A stretch of DNA of 64,000 nucleotides, taken from Phycisphaerae bacterium. GTDB taxonomy: Bacteria > Planctomycetota > Phycisphaerae > Sedimentisphaerales > Anaerobacaceae. Position 1 is the first letter of the stretch. Each line of letters starts with the position of its first letter. The stretch lies in contig JAGOLX010000004.1 of the NCBI GenBank assembly GCA_017993835.1, forward strand, positions 62,001 to 126,000, in the 5' to 3' direction. Both the position numbers and the translations under genes were made by a program. The notes under the pieces are model-generated. The model did not search any database. It had not been told where the DNA came from and saw only the letters and a list, made by a program, of their open reading frames with translations. Shown one piece after another: positions 35,923 to 46,913 of this stretch.

Positions 35923-38394
35923 TCAGCCGATGAACAGGTTCACGTTCGCGGAGCCGGCGCGGTCGAGATACATCGCGACGCCGCCTTCCTCGACGCCTTC
36001 GATGAGTTCCTCGCGTTTGATGCCCATGAGGTCCATGGTCATCGTGCAGGCGACCAGTCGCACGCCGCTCTTCTGTGCGGCCGCGATCAGCTCGGGCAGG
36101 GACAGGACGTTCTTCTTTCGCATAATGTCCTTGATCATGGCGGTGCCCAGGCCGGCCATGTTCATCTTCGACAGGGTCGTCCTGCCCGCGCCGCGAGGCA
36201 TCATCCAGCCGAACATCCGCTCGACAGGGGTCTTCTGCACGACGACCGGCTGCGACCGGCGCAGCAGGTTCAGAGCCCAGAATGTGAAGAACATCGTCAC
36301 GCTGCTGCCCATCGCGGCGGCGCCATTGGCGATGATGAATGCGGCCATCGCCTTGTCGAAGGCGTCGCTGAAGACCACGAGGGTCTTGTGGTTGGAGGTC
36401 ACGGTCTGCGTCGGCGTCTGCGAGGGTTGGCCTTTCTCCACGACCGCGACAAGCACTCCCCTGGCGAGCTTCTTGTCCCTCAGTCGATTCCCTGTGGTGT
36501 GGCACCAGCCGTCCAGATCCGCGGCGAAGGCGGGATCGGAGACGGAGATCCGCACGGCCTGGCCGGGCTGGACCTGATCCACCGCCTGTTTGAGCTGCAT
36601 GATCGGGCCGGGGCACTGCAGGCCGCAGGCGTCGATTTCCTTGACGATCCGCACCGGCTCCTCAGAGACAGGCGGCGGGTTCTGGCCACCCTGTCCGGCG
36701 TCCTCTTTCACCTCCCGCTTGGCGGCGGGCTTGTCGGACATTCGGCCCACAACGTGACAGTAGGTCTTGTATCCGCCCGATAGATTCCGGCAGGCAATGC
36801 CGTTCTGAGAAAGGATGCGGCAGGCCAGGTAGCCTCGCAGGCCGACCTGGCAGAAGGCCAGGATCTCTTTGTCCCGAGGCAGCTCGCCCAGCCGATTGCG
36901 GAGGTCGTCGAGCGGAATGTTGATCGAGCCCGGAATAGTCCCCTGCTGCACTTCCGACGCGGTCCGCACATCCAGGAGCAACTGCTTAGGACCGGGGTTG
37001 GCGACCTCGGCCGCATGGCAGATCTGCGCCTCTTTTCGCAGTACGTTCGCGGCGGCAAAGCCCGCGTAGTTCACCGGGTCTTTGGCGGAGCCAAAAGGCG
37101 GCGCGTAGGCCAGTTCGAGCTTCTCCAGGTCATAGACGGTCATGCCCGCTCGGATGGCGACCGCCAGGACGTCGATCCGCTTGTCCACGCCGTCGGCTCC
37201 GACGCATTGGGCGCCGAGGATCTTCCCGGTCAGGGGGTCGAAGAGCAGCTTCAGACTCATCTGCATCGCGCCCGGATAGTACCCTGCGTGGCTGGCGGGA
37301 TGCACGTAGATCTTCTCGTAGGTCCGTGCTGCCCGTTTGAGGGCCTTCTCGCTGAGACCGGTCATGCCCACGGCCAGATCGAAGACCTTGCAGATCGCGG
37401 TGCCCTGAGTCCGGTCGTAGGCGGCGTCTCCGCCCAGAGCATTGACCGCCGCGATTCGACCCTGCCGATTCGCCGGACCGGCCAGCGGAATCACCGCCGC
37501 GAATCCGCCGACGAAATCCTGAACCTCGACCGCGTCACCGACCGCATAGATGTCCGGGTCCGAGGTCCGCATGTGATCGTCCACGACGATGCCCCTGCGA
37601 TGGCCGATGGTCAGTCCCGCTTCGGCAGCCAGCTTCACCTCGGGACGAACCCCGATCGCCAGGATGACCAGGCCGCACGGAACGGCCCGTCCCGAGCTGA
37701 GTCGGGCCTCGATCTGCCCATCCCGCTCTTCGATCGCGGTGATGCTGCTGCCGAGACACAGGTCCACTCCTTTGAAACGGAGGTGCTCATGCAGCGGCGT
37801 CGCCATCTCGGGGTCGATCGGGCCCATCACCTGGGACTCCAGTTCCACCAGCGACACAGCCAGCCCGCGATGCGTCAGGACCTCCGCCATCTCCAGGCCG
37901 ATGTATCCGCCTCCGACGACAACGGCGGATTGGATGGAGGCGGTGTCCACGACCGCCTTGATCGCGTCCATATCGGTGAGATTGCGCAGCGCGAACACCT
38001 TCTTGTGATCGGCGCCAGGGATCGGCGGCCGGACGGGCTCGGCGCCGGGACTGAGGATCAACACGTCGTAGGGTTGCTCATATTGTCTGTCCTGGGCCTT
38101 GTCGTGGACTACAACGACCTTCTTGCCGCGGTCGATGCGGATCACCTCGGTCTGCACGCGGACATCGACCGCGAAGCGTCGGCGCATCGCCTCGGGACTC
38201 TGGACCAGGAGCCTCGCGCGGTCCTGGATAATCCCGCCCACATGGTAGGGTAAGCCGCAATTGGCAAAGGAGATATCGCTACCGCGCTCGAACAGAACAA
38301 TCTCGGCGTCTTCACTGACGCGCCTGGCCTTGGCGGCTGCGGACGCTCCGCCCGCCACCCCGCCCACAATCACGATGCGTTTGCCTTGCCCCAT
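35923..38394 (-). CDS. CoA-disulfide reductase - rhodanese - TusA - DsrE fusion
   Basis: An 823-residue four-domain sulfur-handling protein. Residues 1 to about 445 are a pyridine-nucleotide-disulfide oxidoreductase of the CoADR/NADH oxidase type, with FAD motif IVIVGGVAGGASAAAKAR, redox cysteine C46 in FANCGLPYHVGG, and NAD motif VVVGGGYIGLEMAE. About 455-550 is a rhodanese with active cysteine in LAFCQVGLRGYLA. About 585-660 is a TusA/SirA domain with CGLQCPGPIMQLKQ. About 680-823 is a DsrE/DsrF-like domain (VVFSDAFDKAMAAFIIANGAAAMGSSVTMFFTFWALNLL). The chain could pass persulfide sulfur between sites. It sits directly downstream of nifS. Confidence 0.93.
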   Translation of the reverse strand: MGQGKRIVIVGGVAGGASAAAKARRVSEDAEIVLFERGSDISFANCGLPYHVGGIIQDRARLLVQSPEAMRRRFAVDVRVQTEVIRIDRGKKVVVVHDKAQDRQYEQPYDVLILSPGAEPVRPPIPGADHKKVFALRNLTDMDAIKAVVDTASIQSAVVVGGGYIGLEMAEVLTHRGLAVSLVELESQVMGPIDPEMATPLHEHLRFKGVDLCLGSSITAIEERDGQIEARLSSGRAVPCGLVILAIGVRPEVKLAAEAGLTIGHRRGIVVDDHMRTSDPDIYAVGDAVEVQDFVGGFAAVIPLAGPANRQGRIAAVNALGGDAAYDRTQGTAICKVFDLAVGMTGLSEKALKRAARTYEKIYVHPASHAGYYPGAMQMSLKLLFDPLTGKILGAQCVGADGVDKRIDVLAVAIRAGMTVYDLEKLELAYAPPFGSAKDPVNYAGFAAANVLRKEAQICHAAEVANPGPKQLLLDVRTASEVQQGTIPGSINIPLDDLRNRLGELPRDKEILAFCQVGLRGYLACRILSQNGIACRNLSGGYKTYCHVVGRMSDKPAAKREVKEDAGQGGQNPPPVSEEPVRIVKEIDACGLQCPGPIMQLKQAVDQVQPGQAVRISVSDPAFAADLDGWCHTTGNRLRDKKLARGVLVAVVEKGQPSQTPTQTVTSNHKTLVVFSDAFDKAMAAFIIANGAAAMGSSVTMFFTFWALNLLRRSQPVVVQKTPVERMFGWMMPRGAGRTTLSKMNMAGLGTAMIKDIMRKKNVLSLPELIAAAQKSGVRLVACTMTMDLMGIKREELIEGVEEGGVAMYLDRAGSANVNLFIG

Positions 38395-38583
38395 ACTGGT
38401 ACCTCATTCATATCCGTTTTGCGAAATCCCTTTGAAACCCCACGGCATGGGGGTCCAACATCCGCAGCGAGATATACACCGGATGTCCGAGGTAAGTTCA
38501 TTGAAGGCGGACTGGAAGTATAGCGCACAGGAGAAGACCCGCGAGACACATCGTCGCTGCCCTACTCACGGGATCATGACAGG

Positions 38584-39756
38584 TCAGCGACTCAGGACGC
38601 TGTTTTGGACGAAAGGCGACAACTCACGAAGCCGGGTGATGATCTGGGGCATCTTCTGGATGGTGAAATCGACCTCGTCCTCGGTGTTGTACCGGCTCAG
38701 ACTGAAGCGGATCGACCCGTGTGCCGCGGTGAACGGCACGCCCATCGCGCGGAGCACGTGGGAGGGCTCCAGCGAGCCGGAGGTGCAGGCCGAACCGCTG
38801 CTGGCGCAGATGCCGAAGCGGTCGAGCAGCAGGAGAATTGCCTCGCCCTCGATGTACTCAAAGCTAATGTTGGTCGTGTTGGGCAGGCGGGCCTGCGTGT
38901 CGCCATTGACGCGACTGTCCGTACAGGACGCCAGGATCTCGCGTTCCAGCTTGTCCCGCAGGGCCTTCACGCGGGTATTCTCCTCCTCCATGTGTCGGTC
39001 GGCCAGTTCGCAGGCCTTGCCCAGGCCGACGATGCCGGGGACATTTTCCGTCCCGGCCCGTCGGCCGCCCTCCTGGTGGCCGCCCAGCATCCAGGGGGCG
39101 ATTCGCGTGCCCTTCTTGACGTACAGGACGCCGACCCCCTTGGGGGCGTGCAGCTTGTGGCCCGACAGGCTCAACAGGTTGATCCGGCTCTTCGAGAGGT
39201 TCAGCGGGATCTTGCCGACGACCTGGACCGCGTCCGTGTGGAAAACGATGCCCCGGCTGGTGACCATCTCCGCGATCTGCTCGATGGGGAAGATCACGCC
39301 GGTCTCGTTGTTGGCGTACATGATCGAGACCAGGGCGGTGTCGTTGTCGAGGTGTCGCTCCAAGTCGTGCAAGTCCAGACGGCCCAGCTTGTCGACGCCC
39401 AGCTCGATCACTGTGTAGCCGCGGTTCTCCAACTCGCGGCAGACAGCCAGAACCGCCGGATGCTCCACGCGGGTCGTAATGACCTTTCGCCTGTGCGGCG
39501 ACGCGGCCAGCGTCCCGTGAATGGCGGCGCTGTCGCTCTCCGTGCCGCAACTGGTGAAGATGATCTCGCTCGGATCGCAGCCGAGCAGATGGGCGACCCG
39601 CTCGCGGGCCTCGCGGACCTGGATACCGACCTGGCCGCCGAACGTGTGCATGCTCGACGGGTTGCCGTACAAGCTGCAGAAGTACGGCCTCATCGCCTCG
39701 TAGACCTCGTCGTCCACCCGCGTCGTCGCGTTGTTATCGAAGTAGATGGTTTTCAC
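38584..39756 (-). CDS. nifS: Cysteine desulfurase, NifS/IscS type
   Basis: A 390-residue PLP enzyme that takes sulfur from cysteine to build Fe-S clusters and other thiocofactors. The PLP lysine is K201 (SLSGHK-LHAPKG) and the persulfide cysteine is C324 (ASSGSACTSGSLEPSHVL). NNATTRVDDEVYEAM and HTDAVQ are typical. The lack of a long C-terminal tail fits NifS rather than E. coli IscS. It lies downstream of nifU, separated by a repeat element, and the CoADR fusion follows, so released sulfur may feed both the NifU scaffold and the TusA/DsrE domains. Confidence 0.95.
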   Translation of the reverse strand: MKTIYFDNNATTRVDDEVYEAMRPYFCSLYGNPSSMHTFGGQVGIQVREARERVAHLLGCDPSEIIFTSCGTESDSAAIHGTLAASPHRRKVITTRVEHPAVLAVCRELENRGYTVIELGVDKLGRLDLHDLERHLDNDTALVSIMYANNETGVIFPIEQIAEMVTSRGIVFHTDAVQVVGKIPLNLSKSRINLLSLSGHKLHAPKGVGVLYVKKGTRIAPWMLGGHQEGGRRAGTENVPGIVGLGKACELADRHMEEENTRVKALRDKLEREILASCTDSRVNGDTQARLPNTTNISFEYIEGEAILLLLDRFGICASSGSACTSGSLEPSHVLRAMGVPFTAAHGSIRFSLSRYNTEDEVDFTIQKMPQIITRLRELSPFVQNSVLSR

Positions 39757-39778
39757 TACCAGTCCCCTGAGTCAGACT

Positions 39779-39967
39779 CTGAAAGAGTCAAAATCCGAAA
39801 TCCGAATATCGCCCCCGCCGAGGCGGGAACGTAAATCCGAAACAAGCACGAATGACAGAAACCCGAATGCTCCAAACGGACTTTCCGGCGGGCGTCAGCA
39901 TTTCTGTCATTCGAATTTGGGTCCTTTGGATTTGTCTCGGATTTCGAGTTTCGAGCTTCGTGCTTGC
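39779..39967. repeat. Palindromic interspersed element between nifU and nifS
   Basis: CGAATGACAGAAA (39849-39861) and TTTCTGTCATTCG (39901-39913) are a perfect 13-bp inverted repeat; CAAGCACGAA (39843-39852) pairs with TTCGTGCTTG (39957-39966). Short AATCCGAAATCCGAA direct repeats lie at the left edge, with a TCCCGCCTCGGCGGG hairpin (minus strand) at about 39810. It has no coding content and separates two genes that otherwise look co-transcribed. Confidence 0.75.
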
Positions 39968-39972
39968 CCCTG

Positions 39973-40860
39973 TTATCCTTTGTGCTCGTGCCCCGTCTCC
40001 AGCGAATCCTTGTCCTCCTCGACGCACAGGTCTTCGGAGACGAACTCGCGGAGCTTGGCTTCGACCACATCTCTCATCGTGAACTCGCTGACCTTGCACT
40101 GGGCGCACATGCCGCGAAAGGCGATGATAACCTTGTCGCCCTCGACGTCGATCAGCTCGATATTGCCGCCGTGCGCGCGTAGAGCCGGCCGGACCTGTTC
40201 GTTGATCGTCTGTTGGATGAGCTGGATCTTCTGGATGGTGGTCAGTTTCTTCCCTTTGGCGGGCGTCGGCACGCTCTGTTCCTTGACCTTCTGCCCCTGG
40301 ACCGCCTGGATGATCTTCTCGATCTCTCCCCGACAGCCCCCGCAACCGCCGCCGGCCTTGCAGTAGTTCGTCACCTGCTCGACCGTCGTCAGATCGTTGT
40401 CGCGGATCACCCGCTCGATTTCCTTGTCGGTGACGCCGAAGCAGGTGCAGACGACGCGGGCGCCGTGCTCATGGTCGTGCGGGGCAACGGCATGGCCGCG
40501 ATAGTTCGCGATGGCCGCCTCTAGGGCCTCCTGACCCATCACGGAACAGTGCATCTTCTGCTCGGGCAGGCCGCCCAGGTAGTCCGCAATGTCGCGGTTT
40601 GTCACCTTCATCGCCTCTTCGAGCGTCTTACCCTTGATCAATTCCGTGAGGACGGAGGAGCTGGCGATGGCACTGGCGCAGCCGAACGTCTTGAACTTGA
40701 CGTCTGTGATCCGCCCTTTCTTGTCGAGCTTGAACGTCAGCTTCAAGGCATCGCCGCAGGCGAGCGAGCCGACTTCGCCCACGCCGTCGGGGTTATCTAC
40801 CTCGCCCACGTTCCGCGGGTTGAGGAAGTGATCCATGACTTTGTCGGTGTATTCCCACAT
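39973..40860 (-). CDS. nifU: Three-domain NifU Fe-S cluster scaffold
   Basis: A 295-residue scaffold that assembles Fe-S clusters from NifS-derived sulfur. Residues 1 to about 130 are the IscU-type domain with C35, C61 and C105 (SLACGDA, FGCASAIASSS, MHCSVMGQEA). The middle is a BFD-like [2Fe-2S] domain (VCTCFGVTDKEIERVI, YCKAGGGCGGC). The C-terminal Nfu domain carries CAQC (RGMCAQCKVSEFT). Full-length NifU is common in diazotrophs but also serves as a general scaffold in planctomycetes and epsilon-proteobacteria; no nitrogenase gene is in the window. The likely clients here include AhbC and AhbD. Confidence 0.96.
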   Translation of the reverse strand: MWEYTDKVMDHFLNPRNVGEVDNPDGVGEVGSLACGDALKLTFKLDKKGRITDVKFKTFGCASAIASSSVLTELIKGKTLEEAMKVTNRDIADYLGGLPEQKMHCSVMGQEALEAAIANYRGHAVAPHDHEHGARVVCTCFGVTDKEIERVIRDNDLTTVEQVTNYCKAGGGCGGCRGEIEKIIQAVQGQKVKEQSVPTPAKGKKLTTIQKIQLIQQTINEQVRPALRAHGGNIELIDVEGDKVIIAFRGMCAQCKVSEFTMRDVVEAKLREFVSEDLCVEEDKDSLETGHEHKG

Positions 40861-40908
40861 GGCAGTTCTTTGTCCTTGATGATTCTGTTACTATCTGAGG
40901 AATAGGAC

Positions 40909-40934
40909 CCATAGGACCGATGGGACGTATGGGG
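40909..40934. repeat. Degenerate CCATAGGACC tandem repeat
   Basis: Variants of CCCATAGGACC and GATGGGACGTATGGGG repeat head to tail between nadA and nifU. A related stretch (CATGAGACTTATGGGACCTA) is at 52159-52178, so this is another interspersed low-complexity family. Confidence 0.55.
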
Positions 40935-41054
40935 CCTGTTCCGGCACCTCACGCACTCGCCCTCAATGCCTGTTCGAAATCGGTGATGGTGTCGTCGTTC
41001 CTGCGTCACAAGTCCCCCGTGTTCCCTCATACTCCCGGTGCTTTGCGGCAAGGG

Positions 41055-41987
41055 TCAGTTCCCCGGCTGGATCTGCACCATTCGTTCGAGGGCCTTGGCC
41101 GCCCGGAGCCGGACCTCGTCGTGGACTTCCATCGGGAATTGCAGATTCGTGAGCGAAGCCAGGACATTCTCCAGCGAGATCTTCTTCATGTTCGGACAGA
41201 CGCCTCGCCTGCTGGCCGGGATGAACTCCGCATCCGGACGGGCCTTCTTCAACGGGTGGATCATGCCGATCTCGGTCGCCACAAGGAACCGCTTGGCCGG
41301 GCTGTTCTGGACGAACTTGAGCATCTGGCCCGTGCTCAGCAGCGCATCGGCCAGATCCTTCACCGGTTCCGAGCACTCGGGATGAGCCATCACAACGGCA
41401 TCCGGATACAGGCGTTTGGCCTGGGCGATGTCGTCATCCGAGATCGACACGTGAGTCGGACAGTACCCGGGCCACAGGATCATCCGCCGGCCCGTCTGCT
41501 GCTCGACGAATCGACCCAGGTGCTGGTCGGGCACGAAGACGATCTCCCGATCCTTCGGCAGCGACTGCACGACCGCGACGGCGTTGGAGCTGGTGCAACA
41601 GTAGTCGCTCTCGGCTTTGACGAGGGCGGTGCTGTTGACATAGCAGACCACCAGCGCATCCGGATGCTGCTGCTTGAGGGCCCGCAACTGGTTCGCCGTA
41701 ATCATGTCCGCCATCGGGCAGCCCGCCCGCCGATCCGGAAGCAAAACGGTCTTGCCGGGGGACAGGATCTTGGCCGTCTCGGCCATGAAGCGTACGCCGC
41801 AGAAAACGATCACCTCCGCATCCGTCTTCGACGCCTGGACGCTCAACCCGAGCGAATCCCCGCAGAAATCCGCCACGTCCTGGACTTCCGCCGGCTGGTA
41901 GTTGTGCGCCAGAATGACGGCATGGCGTTTGTCCCTCCACTCCCGAATCTCATCGAACAGCTTCTGATCCAACTCATTCTCCAGCAT
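41055..41987 (-). CDS. nadA: Quinolinate synthase
   Basis: A 310-residue [4Fe-4S] enzyme that condenses iminoaspartate with dihydroxyacetone phosphate to quinolinate in NAD synthesis. The three cluster cysteines are C90 (LPDRRAGCPMADM), C176 (WPGYCPTHV) and a C-terminal one near 262 (PASRRGVCPNMKKIS). HPECSEPV and HNYQPAEVQDVADF are substrate-binding motifs. ATG 41987 gives the expected family length; upstream extensions lie in the cysE 3' end. As a cysteine- and Fe-S-dependent enzyme, its place between cysE and nifU makes sense. Its partner L-aspartate oxidase is not in the window. Confidence 0.96.
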   Translation of the reverse strand: MLENELDQKLFDEIREWRDKRHAVILAHNYQPAEVQDVADFCGDSLGLSVQASKTDAEVIVFCGVRFMAETAKILSPGKTVLLPDRRAGCPMADMITANQLRALKQQHPDALVVCYVNSTALVKAESDYCCTSSNAVAVVQSLPKDREIVFVPDQHLGRFVEQQTGRRMILWPGYCPTHVSISDDDIAQAKRLYPDAVVMAHPECSEPVKDLADALLSTGQMLKFVQNSPAKRFLVATEIGMIHPLKKARPDAEFIPASRRGVCPNMKKISLENVLASLTNLQFPMEVHDEVRLRAAKALERMVQIQPGN

Positions 41988-42016
41988 GCAATCGCCGCGT
42001 CTTGCCCATGCGGCGA

Positions 42017-42952
42017 TCAGGTGTTCTTCTTCCCTGCGGCCTTCTGCTTGCGATACACCAGGTCCGCGCCGGGACTCGACACGGTCATTCCCGGCGGCAC
42101 GGACTCCTTGACCCATGTGTTGCCGCCGATGACGGCGCCTTTGCCGATGGTGACGTCGCCGAGGATGGTGGCTTCCGCATAGATCGTCACATCGTCCTCG
42201 ATGGTCGGGTGGCGTTTGCCGCCCTTGATGATGCGACCGCGTTCATCCCGGCGGAAGCTCAGCGCCCCGAGCGTCGTGCCCTGGTAGATCTTCACGTTGT
42301 TGCCGATCACGGAGGTCTCGCCGATAACGACGCCGGTGCCATGATCGATGAAGAACCCGCGGCCAATCGTGGCACCCGGGTGGATGTCGATGCCGGTCTT
42401 CATGTGGGCGCACTCGGACATGATTCGCGGAATCAACGGGACTTGGCGGACGTGAAGCTCATGCGCGACCCGATACGTGGCAATCGCGATGATGCACGGA
42501 TAGCTCATCACGATCTCCTCGTAGGACTTGGCCGCAGGATCGCCTTCGTAGGCCGCTCGCACGTCGGTCTTGAGAACCCCGCGAATTCGCGGCACCTCGC
42601 CCAGCAGTCCACTCGTCACCTTGCGGGCCATCGTCCCGCAGTCGCAGTGCGTGCAGTTGTTTATACGACACTGATATTGGTACGCCCGCTCGACCTGCTC
42701 GGCAAGTTCCGTGTACACCTGACTGAGCAGATCGCCCACGATGTATCGGACGTTCGATCGGGTGATCGCCTTGTTGCCCGTGTGCCCCGGGAAGAGCAGT
42801 TCGATCAGCAGGTCGAGCACTTCGATGATCTTGCCCCGCACAGGCAGATTGGAGGCATCGATGAAGTTGATGCCGACATCACCGTCGTAGGTCTCCGTGA
42901 TCTCGTCCACCAGTCTGTCGAGCGTCTTGTTTGTCAGTCTGTCTTTCGCCAT
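42017..42952 (-). CDS. cysE: Serine O-acetyltransferase
   Basis: A 311-residue acetyltransferase that makes O-acetylserine, the substrate of CysK. The C-terminal half is a left-handed beta-helix of hexapeptide repeats: GIDIHPGATIGRGFFIDHGTGVVIGETSVIGNNVKIYQGTTLGAL, then HPTIEDDVTIYAEATILGDVTIGKGAVIGGNTWV. The catalytic DH pair is in IDHGTG. The N-terminus is longer than in E. coli CysE and holds a cysteine patch, CRINNCTHCDCG, that could bind metal or Fe-S; its role is unknown. It lies 21 bases after cysK. Confidence 0.94.
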   Translation of the reverse strand: MAKDRLTNKTLDRLVDEITETYDGDVGINFIDASNLPVRGKIIEVLDLLIELLFPGHTGNKAITRSNVRYIVGDLLSQVYTELAEQVERAYQYQCRINNCTHCDCGTMARKVTSGLLGEVPRIRGVLKTDVRAAYEGDPAAKSYEEIVMSYPCIIAIATYRVAHELHVRQVPLIPRIMSECAHMKTGIDIHPGATIGRGFFIDHGTGVVIGETSVIGNNVKIYQGTTLGALSFRRDERGRIIKGGKRHPTIEDDVTIYAEATILGDVTIGKGAVIGGNTWVKESVPPGMTVSSPGADLVYRKQKAAGKKNT

Positions 42953-42973
42953 TCAAGAAGCCTCTGCTCCCAT

Positions 42974-43918
42974 TCATGCCTTCTCCGGTTCGGGAAGGTT
43001 CTCGAACAACTCCGTGGAAACATAGCGTTCCCCGGTGTCGCAGATGAAGGTGACGATCGTCTTGCCTTCGTTCTCCGGGCGGTGCGACAACTGGACGGCC
43101 GCCCAGATGTTCGCGCCCCCGCTGATGCCGGAGAGAATCCCCTCTTCCGCAGCCAGCCGGCGGGCCGTCTGCAGGGCGTCCTCGTTCGAGACCTGAAGGA
43201 TCTCGTCGATCAGGCCGGTCTGGAGAACCTCGGGGACGAAGCCCGCCCCGATCCCCTGGATCTTGTGGCGTCCCGGCTTGCCCCCCGAAAGGACCGGCGA
43301 GTCCTTCGGCTCGACCGCGACAATCTTCAGGTCGGCATTCTTGGCCTTGAGCGCCTCGCCGCAGCCGGTCAACGTACCGCCGGTCCCTACGGCCGACACC
43401 AGTATATCAACCTTCCCGTCCGTATCGATCCAAATCTCCTTGGCCGTGGTCTCACGATGCGCCCGAGGATTAGCGGGGTTCTTGAACTGCTGGAGCATGT
43501 AAGCTTTGGGATTGGCCGCCACGAGCTGCTCGGCCTTCTCGACGGCCCCTCGGATACCGCGGTCGGCGGGCGTCAGTATGATCCGGGCGCCGAACATCAG
43601 CAGGAGCTTCCGCCGCTCGATGCTCATCGACTCCGGCATGGTCAGAATCAGCGGAATGCCTTTGGCGGCACAGATGAACGCCAGGCCAATGCCAGTATTG
43701 CCGCTGGTGGGCTCCACAAGCACGGTCTCGGGCCCGATGAGCCCGGCCTCCTGGGCCGCTTCGACCATGTACTTGGCGATCCGGTCTTTGATGCTGCCGC
43801 AGGGGTTCTTCGATTCCAGCTTGCCCAGGATTTCGGCCTTGCCTGAACCAAGCTTGTTGATCCGCACCAAGGGCGTATACCCCACCGCGGCTGCGATATC
43901 CTCGAATACAGCGCTCAT
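42974..43918 (-). CDS. cysK: Cysteine synthase A (O-acetylserine sulfhydrylase)
   Basis: A 314-residue PLP enzyme that makes cysteine from O-acetylserine and sulfide. The PLP lysine is in NPCGSIKDRIAKYMV; EPTSGNTGIGLAF is the substrate loop and GTGGTLTGCG binds the cofactor phosphate. GGGAG precedes the ATG at 43918. It is the second gene of an operon led by the Rrf2 regulator (19-base gap), followed by cysE, so both steps of cysteine synthesis are together with Fe-S assembly. Confidence 0.97.
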   Translation of the reverse strand: MSAVFEDIAAAVGYTPLVRINKLGSGKAEILGKLESKNPCGSIKDRIAKYMVEAAQEAGLIGPETVLVEPTSGNTGIGLAFICAAKGIPLILTMPESMSIERRKLLLMFGARIILTPADRGIRGAVEKAEQLVAANPKAYMLQQFKNPANPRAHRETTAKEIWIDTDGKVDILVSAVGTGGTLTGCGEALKAKNADLKIVAVEPKDSPVLSGGKPGRHKIQGIGAGFVPEVLQTGLIDEILQVSNEDALQTARRLAAEEGILSGISGGANIWAAVQLSHRPENEGKTIVTFICDTGERYVSTELFENLPEPEKA

Positions 43919-43937
43919 GCACCTGTGCTCCCAGCCT

Positions 43938-44369
43938 CTAAATCTGATATTCCGCCCTGCCGTTCTTCGACTTGCGGACCAGGTCGGACAGCCGAATGGA
44001 CCCCAGGACGTCCTGGATGGCCTTCTCGACCCGTACCCAGACGTCGCGGGCGGCACAATCCGCCGACCTCGAACAGTAGGATTCTTCATCGACGCACTCC
44101 GCGGTCGTCACCGCACCCTCCAAACATCGGAAGATCTCACTGAGCGTGATCTGGTCCGCCGGCCGACCCAGCGTGTACCCCCCCTTGGAGCCTCTGACGC
44201 TCCGCACGAATCCCGCCGACCGAAGCATACTCATGAGCTGTTCGAGATACTTGACCGAGATGTCCTGCCGTTCGGCGATCGTCTTCAACTGAAGGGGACG
44301 CTTGTCCTCGTGCTGGGCCAGCTCAATGATCGCTCGCATCCCATAACGAGTACGTGTCGAGAGTTTCAT
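43938..44369 (-). CDS. Rrf2-family transcription regulator (IscR/CymR type)
   Basis: A 143-residue winged-helix regulator. The Rrf2 N-terminus is intact (MKLSTRTRYGMRAIIELAQH, IAERQDISVKYLEQLMSMLRSAGFVRSVRGSKGGYTLGRP). C92, C99 and C105 (AECVDEESYCSRSADC) match the IscR cluster cysteines, spaced one residue wider between the first two, so it probably binds a [2Fe-2S] cluster. CymR-like control through CysK is the alternative, given that cysK follows immediately. The promoter upstream contains a GTGTA-N-TACAC palindrome in its spacer, suggesting that it represses its own operon. Confidence 0.92.
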   Translation of the reverse strand: MKLSTRTRYGMRAIIELAQHEDKRPLQLKTIAERQDISVKYLEQLMSMLRSAGFVRSVRGSKGGYTLGRPADQITLSEIFRCLEGAVTTAECVDEESYCSRSADCAARDVWVRVEKAIQDVLGSIRLSDLVRKSKNGRAEYQI

Positions 44370-44396
44370 TTCTTCTAATCTCCTACTATCTCTATT

Positions 44397-44426
44397 ATAT
44401 TAGTGTACTACACACTCCCCGGTCAA
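44397..44426 (-). promoter_or_regulatory. Promoter and candidate operator of the Rrf2-cysK-cysE-nadA operon
   Basis: Minus strand: TTGACC (44426-44421), an 18-base spacer and TAATAT (44402-44397); TATAAT overlaps the -10. The spacer contains GTGTAGTACAC (44413-44403), a palindrome with 5-bp arms about one central base. A bound Rrf2 dimer there would block polymerase. The start codon is about 28 bases downstream. Confidence 0.65.
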
Positions 44427-44719
44427 GACTTCTGTTCGCGAGAAATACACATCACTCGTGCGGCCACCCCCTGCATCGCGCTGGGACCCACGGCCTCCAG
44501 GGCGGCACGTGCCATTGGCGATTACAGATCCCGAGGCCCATGGGTTCATTATTCCCCCTAAATTCCCTACTACTAACTATGCATGCCATCAGGAGCCGGT
44601 TGTCATTGTCGGCCCCGGCGGGTACCATCGGTGGAGTGCCAACCCCGGTCCGAAAACTCGCAGGGGTCTGACAACTTGTTGGTACAAATAGACTTACGGA
44701 CTTCACGGAGTGGAATCTG

Positions 44720-45487
44720 ATGAGAATCGCCAGCTTCAATGTCAACTCGATCCGTGTCCGACTGCCGATCATCCTCTCGTGGCTCCAGAAGAACCGACCC
44801 GACGTCCTGGCCGTGCAGGAAACCAAGGTCCAGGACGCCGATTTTCCCCGGCAGGCGTTTCGCGAAATCGGCTACGCATGCGCCTTCCGCGGCCAGAAAA
44901 CCTACAACGGCGTTGCCATCCTCTCCCCGCACGAAATCGAACGAGTCGAATTCGGGCTTCTGGACGAGCCGAAGGACGAGCCGCGGATCGTGACGGCGGT
45001 CATCCAGGGCATCACGCTCGTGAACACCTACGTCCCGCAGGGTTACCTCGCGGCGTCAGAACGCTTCCAGTACAAGCTCGATTGGTTCAAACGCCTCCTC
45101 GCCTACTTTCGTGAGAGGTTCAGACCGAATGAACCGGTGCTCTGGGTGGGAGACCTCAACATCGCGCCGCTGCCCATCGACGTGTACGATCCCGTCGCGT
45201 TGGAGGGCCATGTATGCTATCACCCCGCGGTCCGCAGGGCACTGGCGGAGGTGATGGACTGGGGTTTCACCGATCTGTTCCGCAAGCACTGCTCTGAGCC
45301 GGGCCAATACACATTCTGGGATTACAGAATCGGGAACTTCTTCCAGAAGAACCGCGGATGGCGGATCGATCACATCCTGGGCACCGCCCCCCTGGCGGAC
45401 CGATGCACCGCCTGTACCATCGATAAGGAACCCCGCGCCGCGGAGCGTCCCAGCGACCACACGCCGATCGTCGTGGAGATTGCGTGA
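44720..45487 (+). CDS. xthA: Exodeoxyribonuclease III
   Basis: A 255-residue AP endonuclease/3'-exonuclease of the EEP superfamily used in base-excision repair. MRIASFNVNSIRVRL, VLAVQETKVQD (metal Glu), PVLWVGDLNIAPLPIDVYDP (catalytic Asp/Asn) and ERPSDHTPIVVEIA (terminal Asp-His) are all present. Length is normal. GGAG lies 10 bases before the ATG. It is divergent from the Rrf2 regulator, with about 290 bases between them that hold no other recognisable gene. Confidence 0.97.
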   Translation: MRIASFNVNSIRVRLPIILSWLQKNRPDVLAVQETKVQDADFPRQAFREIGYACAFRGQKTYNGVAILSPHEIERVEFGLLDEPKDEPRIVTAVIQGITLVNTYVPQGYLAASERFQYKLDWFKRLLAYFRERFRPNEPVLWVGDLNIAPLPIDVYDPVALEGHVCYHPAVRRALAEVMDWGFTDLFRKHCSEPGQYTFWDYRIGNFFQKNRGWRIDHILGTAPLADRCTACTIDKEPRAAERPSDHTPIVVEIA

Positions 45488-45505
45488 AGACGCCGCCTGC
45501 CCGCA

Positions 45506-46495
45506 TCACTGCGGCTTGCCAGGATTCAGGGGACCGATGTACTCGCGGGCGACAACAATGTCGTCGAACCAGACCTTGCTCACGTGACCCGCGGGCGCCT
45601 TCGTGATGTACAGCAGCAGCCAGAAGAAATTCAGATTCAGATCATCCGTGCTCCGCCAGCGGAATCCCTCGAAGGGCTCGCCGTTCGCATCGGGCAGAAA
45701 ACTGTCCCAGACCCACTTGCCGCGAGGAAAACCCAGACCCAGATGGCTGAGAGTCTGCCCGTCCTTGGTCCAGGGCCGGCCGTCGATCCACATCGCCTGC
45801 TCGCCGTTGCTGTCGGCCGCGGGGTCGTTCATCTTCATCATCAGTTCGACGCAGATCCACCGACCTCGCTCGACCGCGAGCTTCGGATCGTTCACGAAGT
45901 CGTGCCCCCACGACTTGCCATCGGGCGAGGACCGCATCCCCATCCAGTAGGAGTAGAAATCCCACCGCCATTCGTCGCCGTAGGGCTCGACGCCCGTGGT
46001 GAACCGCTCGTCGCCCTTGGGCCGGGTGCCTGCTCCCCCCTGCGGCCATCTTGTCGGCGGATTGTACCCTCCGAGGTGGACGAAGTGATGGATCGGGTAG
46101 CAGCCGGGATCGAACTTCACGTAGAACCGCACATACAGCTTCTCATAGCCGGGAAGCAGTCGCCGATACAGGTGGCCGCCCGTGCCCTGGCCGCCGATAT
46201 GGGTCATCAGGAGCGAGCGTTTGCCACCGCTTGGCGAGGGCACGTCCTGCGAAAGCGACATGATCTCCTTGCCCTCAGCATTCTCCCAACGGGACCACAC
46301 AGCCTCCAAATCGCCCTCCTCGAAATCCTCGGCAAAGACGACCGCCGGATCTCTTTGTATCCCGTCGTCTCCCACGTACTTGGAGGCCACCCCCGGCGTC
46401 GCTTGGCGCAACGGCTGCGAACCTTCGGAGCCCATTAACAGACCCGCGGAGACGAGCGACACGAGAAGAGAACCGCAGTAGATGAGTTGTACCAT
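45506..46495 (-). CDS. Secreted protein, possibly polysaccharide lyase-like jelly-roll
   Basis: A 329-residue exported protein with a signal sequence (VQLIYCGSLLVSLVSAGLLMGSEG). VVFAEDFEEGDLEAVWSRWENAEG begins a concanavalin-like beta-sandwich. LYVRFYVKFDPGCYPIHHFVHLGGYNP, the mid region YGDEWRWDFYSYWMGM and the late VWFDDIVVAREYIGPL are typical of alginate- and polysaccharide-lyase-like planctomycete proteins. I cannot assign a family or catalytic residues. GGAG precedes ATG 46495. It converges with xthA (gap 18 bases). Confidence 0.72.
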   Translation of the reverse strand: MVQLIYCGSLLVSLVSAGLLMGSEGSQPLRQATPGVASKYVGDDGIQRDPAVVFAEDFEEGDLEAVWSRWENAEGKEIMSLSQDVPSPSGGKRSLLMTHIGGQGTGGHLYRRLLPGYEKLYVRFYVKFDPGCYPIHHFVHLGGYNPPTRWPQGGAGTRPKGDERFTTGVEPYGDEWRWDFYSYWMGMRSSPDGKSWGHDFVNDPKLAVERGRWICVELMMKMNDPAADSNGEQAMWIDGRPWTKDGQTLSHLGLGFPRGKWVWDSFLPDANGEPFEGFRWRSTDDLNLNFFWLLLYITKAPAGHVSKVWFDDIVVAREYIGPLNPGKPQ

Positions 46496-46913
46496 GGCAC
46501 ATCTCCTGTATGGACCCTGTTGGATACGGAGTCGCGGACTCGCTCGTAAACGTCGATATGCACCCTGCACATGACAGCAAGCCTTCCGCAGTGACACATC
46601 AGGTCGCCCACGATTCTACGGATTCCCCACGCGAACAGTCACGCAGAATCTCCCCAATCCTGGAAGATCGCGTAAGAGACCTTTCGACACCGAGCCGCAC
46701 GATGCCGTGGCCGACCCGGCTCCGCCTGACAGAAGGCAAGCTTGCCCAGGTGAAGAACGAGCTGCGGTGCGACCCACACAATGAGAGTCTCCGGGCGGAA
46801 TGCGAGAAGCTGGAGAAGATGTACGCTGGTGTTCACCGTTTCTCGGCACCGTTTCTCAGCCGGAGCCTTCGGCAGTGGCTTGTAACCTATTTTCTCGCAA
46901 GGGTTTAGGAGAA
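46496..46913. other. Intergenic region without a recognisable gene
   Basis: About 420 bases between the secreted protein gene and the tRNA. A plus-strand reading frame of 132 codons runs through it (46510-46908), and its second half (TEGKLAQVKNELRCDPHNESLRAECEKLEKMY) looks like helical coding sequence. It has no Shine-Dalgarno and no homologue that I recognise, so I leave it unassigned. Confidence 0.4.

Follow-up and report, generated by a model that had tools for sequence, protein, structure and literature searches.

A conserved Rrf2-headed operon joining cysteine synthesis, nadA and Fe-S assembly genes in a Phycisphaerae bacterium, and its putative CysK-coupled regulator

The DNA analysed here, called the window, is a stretch of 64,000 nucleotides from a Phycisphaerae bacterium and carries on its minus strand a run of genes headed by a regulator of the Rrf2 superfamily. 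The first gene, rrf2 (43938-44369), encodes a CymR/IscR-like protein of 143 amino acids with three clustered cysteines, C92, C99 and C105, and with the C-terminus EYQI, the YQI codons lying at 43941-43949. It is followed by cysK (42974-43918), encoding cysteine synthase A (TIGR01139, 437.6 bits against a cut-off of 350.95), cysE (42017-42952), encoding a serine acetyltransferase whose C-terminus, GKKNT, is without Ile (NF041874, 170.8 bits against 150), nadA (41055-41987), encoding quinolinate synthase (NF006878, 431.8 bits against 294), nifU (39973-40860), encoding a three-domain scaffold (TIGR02000, 367.6 bits against 273.3), and nifS (38584-39756), encoding a cysteine desulfurase (TIGR03402, 626.2 bits against 530.75). 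The initial annotation had read this same order on one strand from the letters, and the family models confirm it. A possible last gene (35923-38394, minus strand) begins 189 nt past nifS; according to Pfam, its product of 823 amino acids carries rhodanese, TusA and DsrE2 domains fused to a flavoprotein that resembles CoA-disulfide reductase. The protein may be an enzyme that handles persulfides, and its gene adjoins nifS; the same fusion gene also stands after nifS in L040, L045 and L127.

Within the run, nadA and nifU are separated by 194 nt, where most relatives have metY, and nifU and nifS by 216 nt (39757-39972). The interspersed repeat in the latter gap is some 130 bp long, has inverted arms (CGAATGACAGAAA) and is matched at 47 places in the genome, a count from 40 scored of 108 candidates that includes the repeat itself and some short or inverted hits. 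In a sequence scan the operon showed no minus-strand terminator-like site and one weak promoter-like site, inside the gene run at 40151-40124 (minus strand). An RNA leader was also considered and rejected, since 38000-45500 is without an Rfam match.

The operon was compared in 61 genomes, that is, the own genome (6,369,074 bases) and 60 relatives, the near relatives being metagenome genomes of Phycisphaerae or Sedimentisphaerales, and Rrf2 matches were found in all 61. The best ortholog and its surroundings were taken from 45 of the 60 relatives (L037-L081), 12 of these loci being cut by a contig end, by the limit of the fetched stretch or by Ns. The order rrf2-cysK-cysE-nadA-metY-nifU-nifS occurs in 24 of the 45 loci and the six-gene order of the window, without metY, in five; the extra seventh gene was called metY from reading its sequence, and the MetY-type gene of the window genome sits elsewhere, on contig C38 (TIGR01326 above cut-off). 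cysK is absent downstream of rrf2 in three loci (L040, L044 and L060), and L057 shows no nifU-nifS. Furthermore, the gene run is present in G029 (L083) with rrf2 cut, and this locus, its start being cut off, was excluded from the gene-order count and from the cysteine alignment described below. In family f5 (G040, G045, G049, G053, G057 and G060) none of the best matches is of the operon type. A search of 199 genomes of the phylum at 1e-25 matched Rrf2 in 14 of them, and the matches of at least 51% identity are the window and three genomes of the same order; cysK-cysE-nadA was found in none of 14 other places in the phylum (L280-L293, 1.5-kb flanks), and within these flanks cysK adjoins rrf2 in L289 and nifS and nadA come after rrf2 in L292. 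Outside the phylum, where the loci are the best 80 of at least 593 pattern matches, Rrf2 genes with cysK occur in Syntrophaceae, Chloroflexi and Clostridia, nifS-rrf2-nifU occurs in several loci named as Deltaproteobacteria or Desulfobacterales, and cysK, rrf2, nifU, nifS and nadA come together in a single deltaproteobacterial locus (L156). As judged from these sequences, the operon is real and conserved.

The SufBD core gave no match in the own genome, which is rated 99% complete, and matched in 14 of 14 control genomes. The only NifU_N match of the genome is the nifU of the operon, and the NadB gene lies on another contig. Quinolinate synthase is an Fe-S protein according to the part of the literature available. 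From the functions of the genes and the single NifU, therefore, the run joins the makers of cysteine with its desulfurase, with one client and with the sole scaffold found.

Upstream of rrf2, a consensus scan gave a promoter-like, sigma-70-like sequence, TTGACC-N18-TAATAT (44397-44426, minus strand); four promoter-like sites came up in 37000-46500, where shuffles have 1.7 (sd 1.3). Its spacer contains an exact palindrome, GTGTA-N-TACAC (GTGTACTACAC, 44403-44413), which the initial annotation took for the control site, suggesting that it be searched for elsewhere. The palindrome is indeed within the promoter spacer, and its only exact match in the 6,369,074 bases of the genome is this one, but it is absent from the operon promoters of all 45 relatives and was rejected as the operator because of this absence. 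In addition, the 150 nt upstream of rrf2 have three perfect inverted repeats (arms of 5, loops up to 6) against a shuffle mean of 0.69, a number which 32 of 500 shuffles reach, so a role of the palindrome as operator is regarded as very improbable.

Another site in the same region is conserved. When 46 upstream stretches, one from the window and 45 from relatives, were searched for a motif, TAtaCTACTAAtatagTAGGAATA emerged, in most cases 34-45 nt before the start codon. When the matrix was retrained on 37 loci outside the genus, with the eight genus mates and the window deliberately left out, the conserved site was CTACTAAtacagTAGGAATA, which overlaps the -10 about 35 nt before rrf2. The best match of the held-out window, at -37, has 9.0 bits, and 1 of 300 shuffles is as good; the proposed operator is thus a diverged copy at 44385-44406 (minus strand), likewise overlapping the -10. 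In five of the eight genus mates the score lies between 13.8 and 19.4 bits (0 of 300 shuffles each), and L038, L039 and L040 are without a clear site (90, 20 and 258 of 300 shuffles). At least 10 bits are reached in 37 of the 45 operon loci, most of which are the 37 training loci, and a -10-like hexamer, from a loose list of hexamers, stands just before the site or overlaps it in 34 of the 45. A site over the -10 is the layout of a repressor site, and repression would be expected from it.

The version of the site in the window (21 bases, up to three mismatches) has two matches in the genome, the operon and C38:29680-29700, at a chance expectation of 0.007 (independent bases, composition of the window), and the same 21 bases taken backwards have none. 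A second Rrf2 gene, which encodes 149 amino acids ending in Tyr-Ser-Ile, follows the C38 site at a distance of 189 nt, and in the divergent direction the site precedes a broken cysK2 remnant, metY and mnmA; this second copy of the site therefore supports the site and also a two-locus regulon or crosstalk. As a separate observation, this place in the own genome (L094, 1447-4336), with a second tail-bearing Rrf2 gene opposite the cysK2 remnant, metY and mnmA, has counterparts with a longer cysK2 match in the genus mates L209, L213 and L220. A similar inverted repeat is kept there in L209 and L220, where the surrounding stretch is poorly aligned, and it is weaker in L213 and missing in L211. A regulon search of the 61 genomes with the family consensus at up to two mismatches gave 127 matches against 365 for the backwards control, which is equal or higher in 57 of the 61, so the two-mismatch matches are uninformative. 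All eight exact matches precede operon-type rrf2 genes (coordinates compared by eye), and the 16 one-mismatch matches comprise seven at operon-type rrf2 genes, one of which has a broken or cut start (L117), four near Rrf2 paralogs and five unexplained ones at other places. In the own genome a genus-style pattern had no match; it was too strict to cover even the site of the window.

The regulator belongs to the Rrf2 superfamily with 146.8 bits for PF02082 against a cut-off of 30, and it falls below the cut-offs of the NCBIfam equivalogs for both IscR (129.1 against 207.55) and CymR (138 against 195). Its cysteine triad is arranged as C-X6-C-X5-C-X2-R, while the pattern of IscR, in the part of the literature available, is Cys-X5-Cys-X5-Cys-X2-His, so that the first spacing differs and Arg stands in place of His. 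In an alignment of 46 operon-type rows (window included) and 10 others, C92 and C105 are found in 56 of 56 rows and C99 in 53. A cluster on this triad with a different fourth ligand would be possible. The IscR-like cysteines of the initial annotation thus hold good as three clustered, conserved cysteines, but not in spacing, His or NCBIfam score, and a plain IscR label for the regulator is not supported by its sequence. At residue 8, where NsrR has the Asp described, in the portion of the source available, as a cluster ligand, the regulator has an Arg that does not vary across an alignment of 29 rows. CymR, in the accounts available in part, binds no cluster, and the triad of the regulator departs from this. 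Among solved structures, phmmer placed the IscR of T. potens first (112.4 bits) and CymR next (103), and Foldseek, used with an AlphaFold2 model (mean pLDDT 89.0), placed three CymR chains on top and the IscR of T. potens after them.

The initial annotation missed the C-terminus of the regulator, Tyr-Gln-Ile, which is an Ile motif of the CymR type. In two reports, as far as their available text goes, the C-terminal Ile of CysE gives most of the binding energy for CysK, CdiA uses the same CysK pocket as the CysE tail, and a C-terminal Ile motif is reported for CymR (PMC12895370, PMC4961446). The CysK of the window has T71, S72 and T75 in TSGNTG and QQ at 143-144, which by motif correspond to the residues named in the literature, as far as its available text goes. 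Of 45 orthologs, 42 end in Ile and 43 have Tyr or Phe at the third-last position, behind a variable linker; residues 141-143 of the model, its flexible end, are below pLDDT 50. The tail is missing in L050, L078 and L079, the first of which has a stop codon ahead of an in-frame LDYQI, and it is kept in L040, L044 and L060 though cysK is not downstream. By analogy, the tail points to CysK as a partner of the regulator.

The tail was also found in 17 of 62 Rrf2 frames sampled outside the Planctomycetota among the best 80 of at least 593 pattern matches, frames without a stop being excluded from the counts of tail and cysK. In this sample, with kinship ignored, cysK lies within 1.5 kb of 9 of the 17 tail-bearing frames against 5 of the 45 tail-less ones (p 0.0011) and within 4 kb of 12 of 17 against 8 of 45 (p 0.00016). 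Among the 63 paralog frames of the order in the matches listed, kinship again ignored, cysK is within 1.5 kb of 3 of 22 tail-bearing frames against 1 of 41 others (p 0.12), and the p value at 4 kb is 0.046. On a tree built without the last eight residues the tail needs 14 changes, and the firm branches give six independent pairs (median p 1), too few for a test, with on average 1.9 in the same direction and 0.5 in the opposite one; eight loci (L127-L131, L133, L135 and L137), most of them taken as second copies of genomes already in the set, were excluded from this tree. Moreover, 16 of the 22 tail-bearing paralogs among the matches listed are without the triad. CysH-type (APS/PAPS-reductase) genes are near five of the tail-bearing paralog loci inspected (L214, L221, L222, L227 and L267), two of which have CysD as well. 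The conserved site is present at 13 bits or more beside 7 of the 22 tail-bearing paralogs against 1 of the 41 others among the matches listed (p 0.0019, kinship ignored), the backwards matrix giving 0 of 22 and 1 of 41. Tail and site are thus common to a Cys-less branch and to the triad branch.

We consider it moderately probable, from sequence and by analogy, that this Rrf2 protein acts as a CymR-like autorepressor on the operon which it leads, coupled to CysK and possibly carrying a cluster as well. It is fairly likely that an Rrf2 dimer would bind 44385-44406 over the -10 and block transcription, that when cysteine is high and O-acetylserine low the tail would dock in the active site of CysK, the docked CysK steadying the repressor on the DNA on the model of B. 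subtilis CymR, and that accumulating O-acetylserine would displace the tail, so that cysK, cysE, nadA, nifU and nifS are made. A CysK partner and O-acetylserine are reported, in the source available in part, for the control of cysteine genes by CymR. That the three cysteines may hold a cluster as a second input is plausible, and less likely than the foregoing steps. Cysteine synthesis and the consumption of cysteine by NifS would then be set together with the sole NifU found and with one Fe-S client.

The operon order, the site and its second copy in the genome, the conservation of the tail, its association with cysK outside the phylum (kinship ignored), the CysE proteins ending in YEI, the Ile tails reported to bind CysK, the site shared by tail-bearing paralogs and the nearest fold, CymR, argue for this autorepressor. 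Against it stand the mere six independent pairs for tail and cysK on the tree, the higher sequence score of the T. potens IscR, the three tail-less orthologs among 45, the tail kept in L040, L044 and L060 with no cysK downstream, the tail-less Rrf2 genes before cysK-cysE-nadA in genomes G044 and G048 (loci L088 and L092), the five of 45 tail-less frames by cysK outside the phylum (best 80 of at least 593), the 9.0 bits of the window site and the three of eight genus mates without a clear one. The self-regulation proposed by the initial annotation is likely because gene order and promoter site are conserved in relatives, but it would act through a site other than the palindrome; similarly, its one sensor over cysteine supply, an Fe-S enzyme and the cluster machinery is retained as a conserved Rrf2-led run, without the IscR label. 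It is a tentative possibility that the regulator has two inputs, CysK docked on the tail reading cysteine and its own cluster reading the Fe-S state, and if true, a single switch would govern NadA, the synthesis of cysteine and the sole NifU that the genome showed.

Sensors with a single input are unlikely on either side. An IscR-like sensor whose cluster on C92/C99/C105 reports the Fe-S supply while the tail is idle agrees with the near-invariant cysteines, with nifU and nifS in the operon and with the T. potens IscR as top solved sequence match, but the spacing of the triad, the missing His and the score under the NCBIfam cut-off do not suit it, and it leaves the conserved last three residues behind a variable linker unexplained. 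A CymR-like sensor whose input is CysK with O-acetylserine, the cysteines being structural or a thiol switch, would account for the tail beside the neighbouring cysK and for the tail-bearing paralogs without the triad, some of them by cysH and cysD (among the matches listed), and the nearest fold is that of a protein said, in the accounts available, to bind no cluster; however, the operon branch keeps the triad almost without exception, and a triad is present in 16 of the 17 frames that bear the tail outside the phylum (best 80 of at least 593), a sample seeded with triad-bearing proteins. It is rather unlikely that in this species nifU and nifS have been uncoupled from the promoter of the regulator and are transcribed on their own: the gaps of 194 and 216 nt, the repeat between the two genes and the weak promoter-like site would fit such a break, but the absence of minus-strand terminator-like sites in the scan of the operon, the absence of Rfam elements in 38000-45500 and the conserved gene order speak against it.

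The preferred autorepressor can be compared with known systems. CymR of Bacillus subtilis and Staphylococcus aureus has the Rrf2 fold in common with it and is nearest by Foldseek, and in the sources available in part CymR has the C-terminal Ile motif, a CysK partner and cysteine genes as targets, as the window regulator has the motif and heads cysteine genes; unlike CymR, which is described there as binding no cluster, the latter has the triad, leads its own operon including nadA, nifU and nifS, and scores below the CymR cut-off. With IscR it shares the fold, three clustered cysteines and Fe-S assembly genes downstream, but the triad and the score differ as given above and cysteine-synthesis genes stand between rrf2 and nifU-nifS. 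In Clostridium perfringens, as far as the available text goes, Rrf2-iscS-iscU-trmU (cpe1786-1783) places Fe-S assembly genes by an Rrf2 gene and answers cysteine limitation, and in C. acetobutylicum CAC2236-cysK an Rrf2 gene adjoins cysK, as in the window; each of these loci holds one half, whereas the window has both halves and nadA under one Rrf2, which suggests a variant of the known Rrf2-cysK and Rrf2-iscSU pairings. No earlier account of this operon was found in the literature searched, a scope outside which most subscription journals lie. CymR, for cysteine, and IscR, for Fe-S clusters, are treated as separate regulators, and the window protein bears marks of both, so an operon with both gene sets offers an uncomplicated setting for asking how a cell coordinates cluster building with the supply of cysteine. 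In addition, tail and triad together are found in 16 of the 62 frames outside the phylum (best 80 of at least 593), including Clostridia, Chloroflexota and Syntrophaceae, and could therefore mark a widespread class between CymR and IscR; the tail itself lets regulators that may be coupled to CysK be picked out cheaply from sequence in phyla that are little studied.

In the complexes of CysE and CdiA-CT with CysK, as far as the cited text is available, the active site of CysK takes up a C-terminal Ile peptide (PMC12895370, PMC4961446). The tail here is, unlike in these cases, on a DNA-binding protein, and the CysE of the window is without it. Some CysE proteins of the window's order do end in YEI, namely in five loci (L046, L048, L053, L136 and L142), those of L133 and L135 looking like second copies, and Ile-ending CysE occurs in 10 of 66 rows. 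Furthermore, the CysH-type reductase adjoining a tail-bearing Rrf2 gene in L267 (1822-2535) itself ends in DYQI, and therefore the tail may occur on enzymes too.
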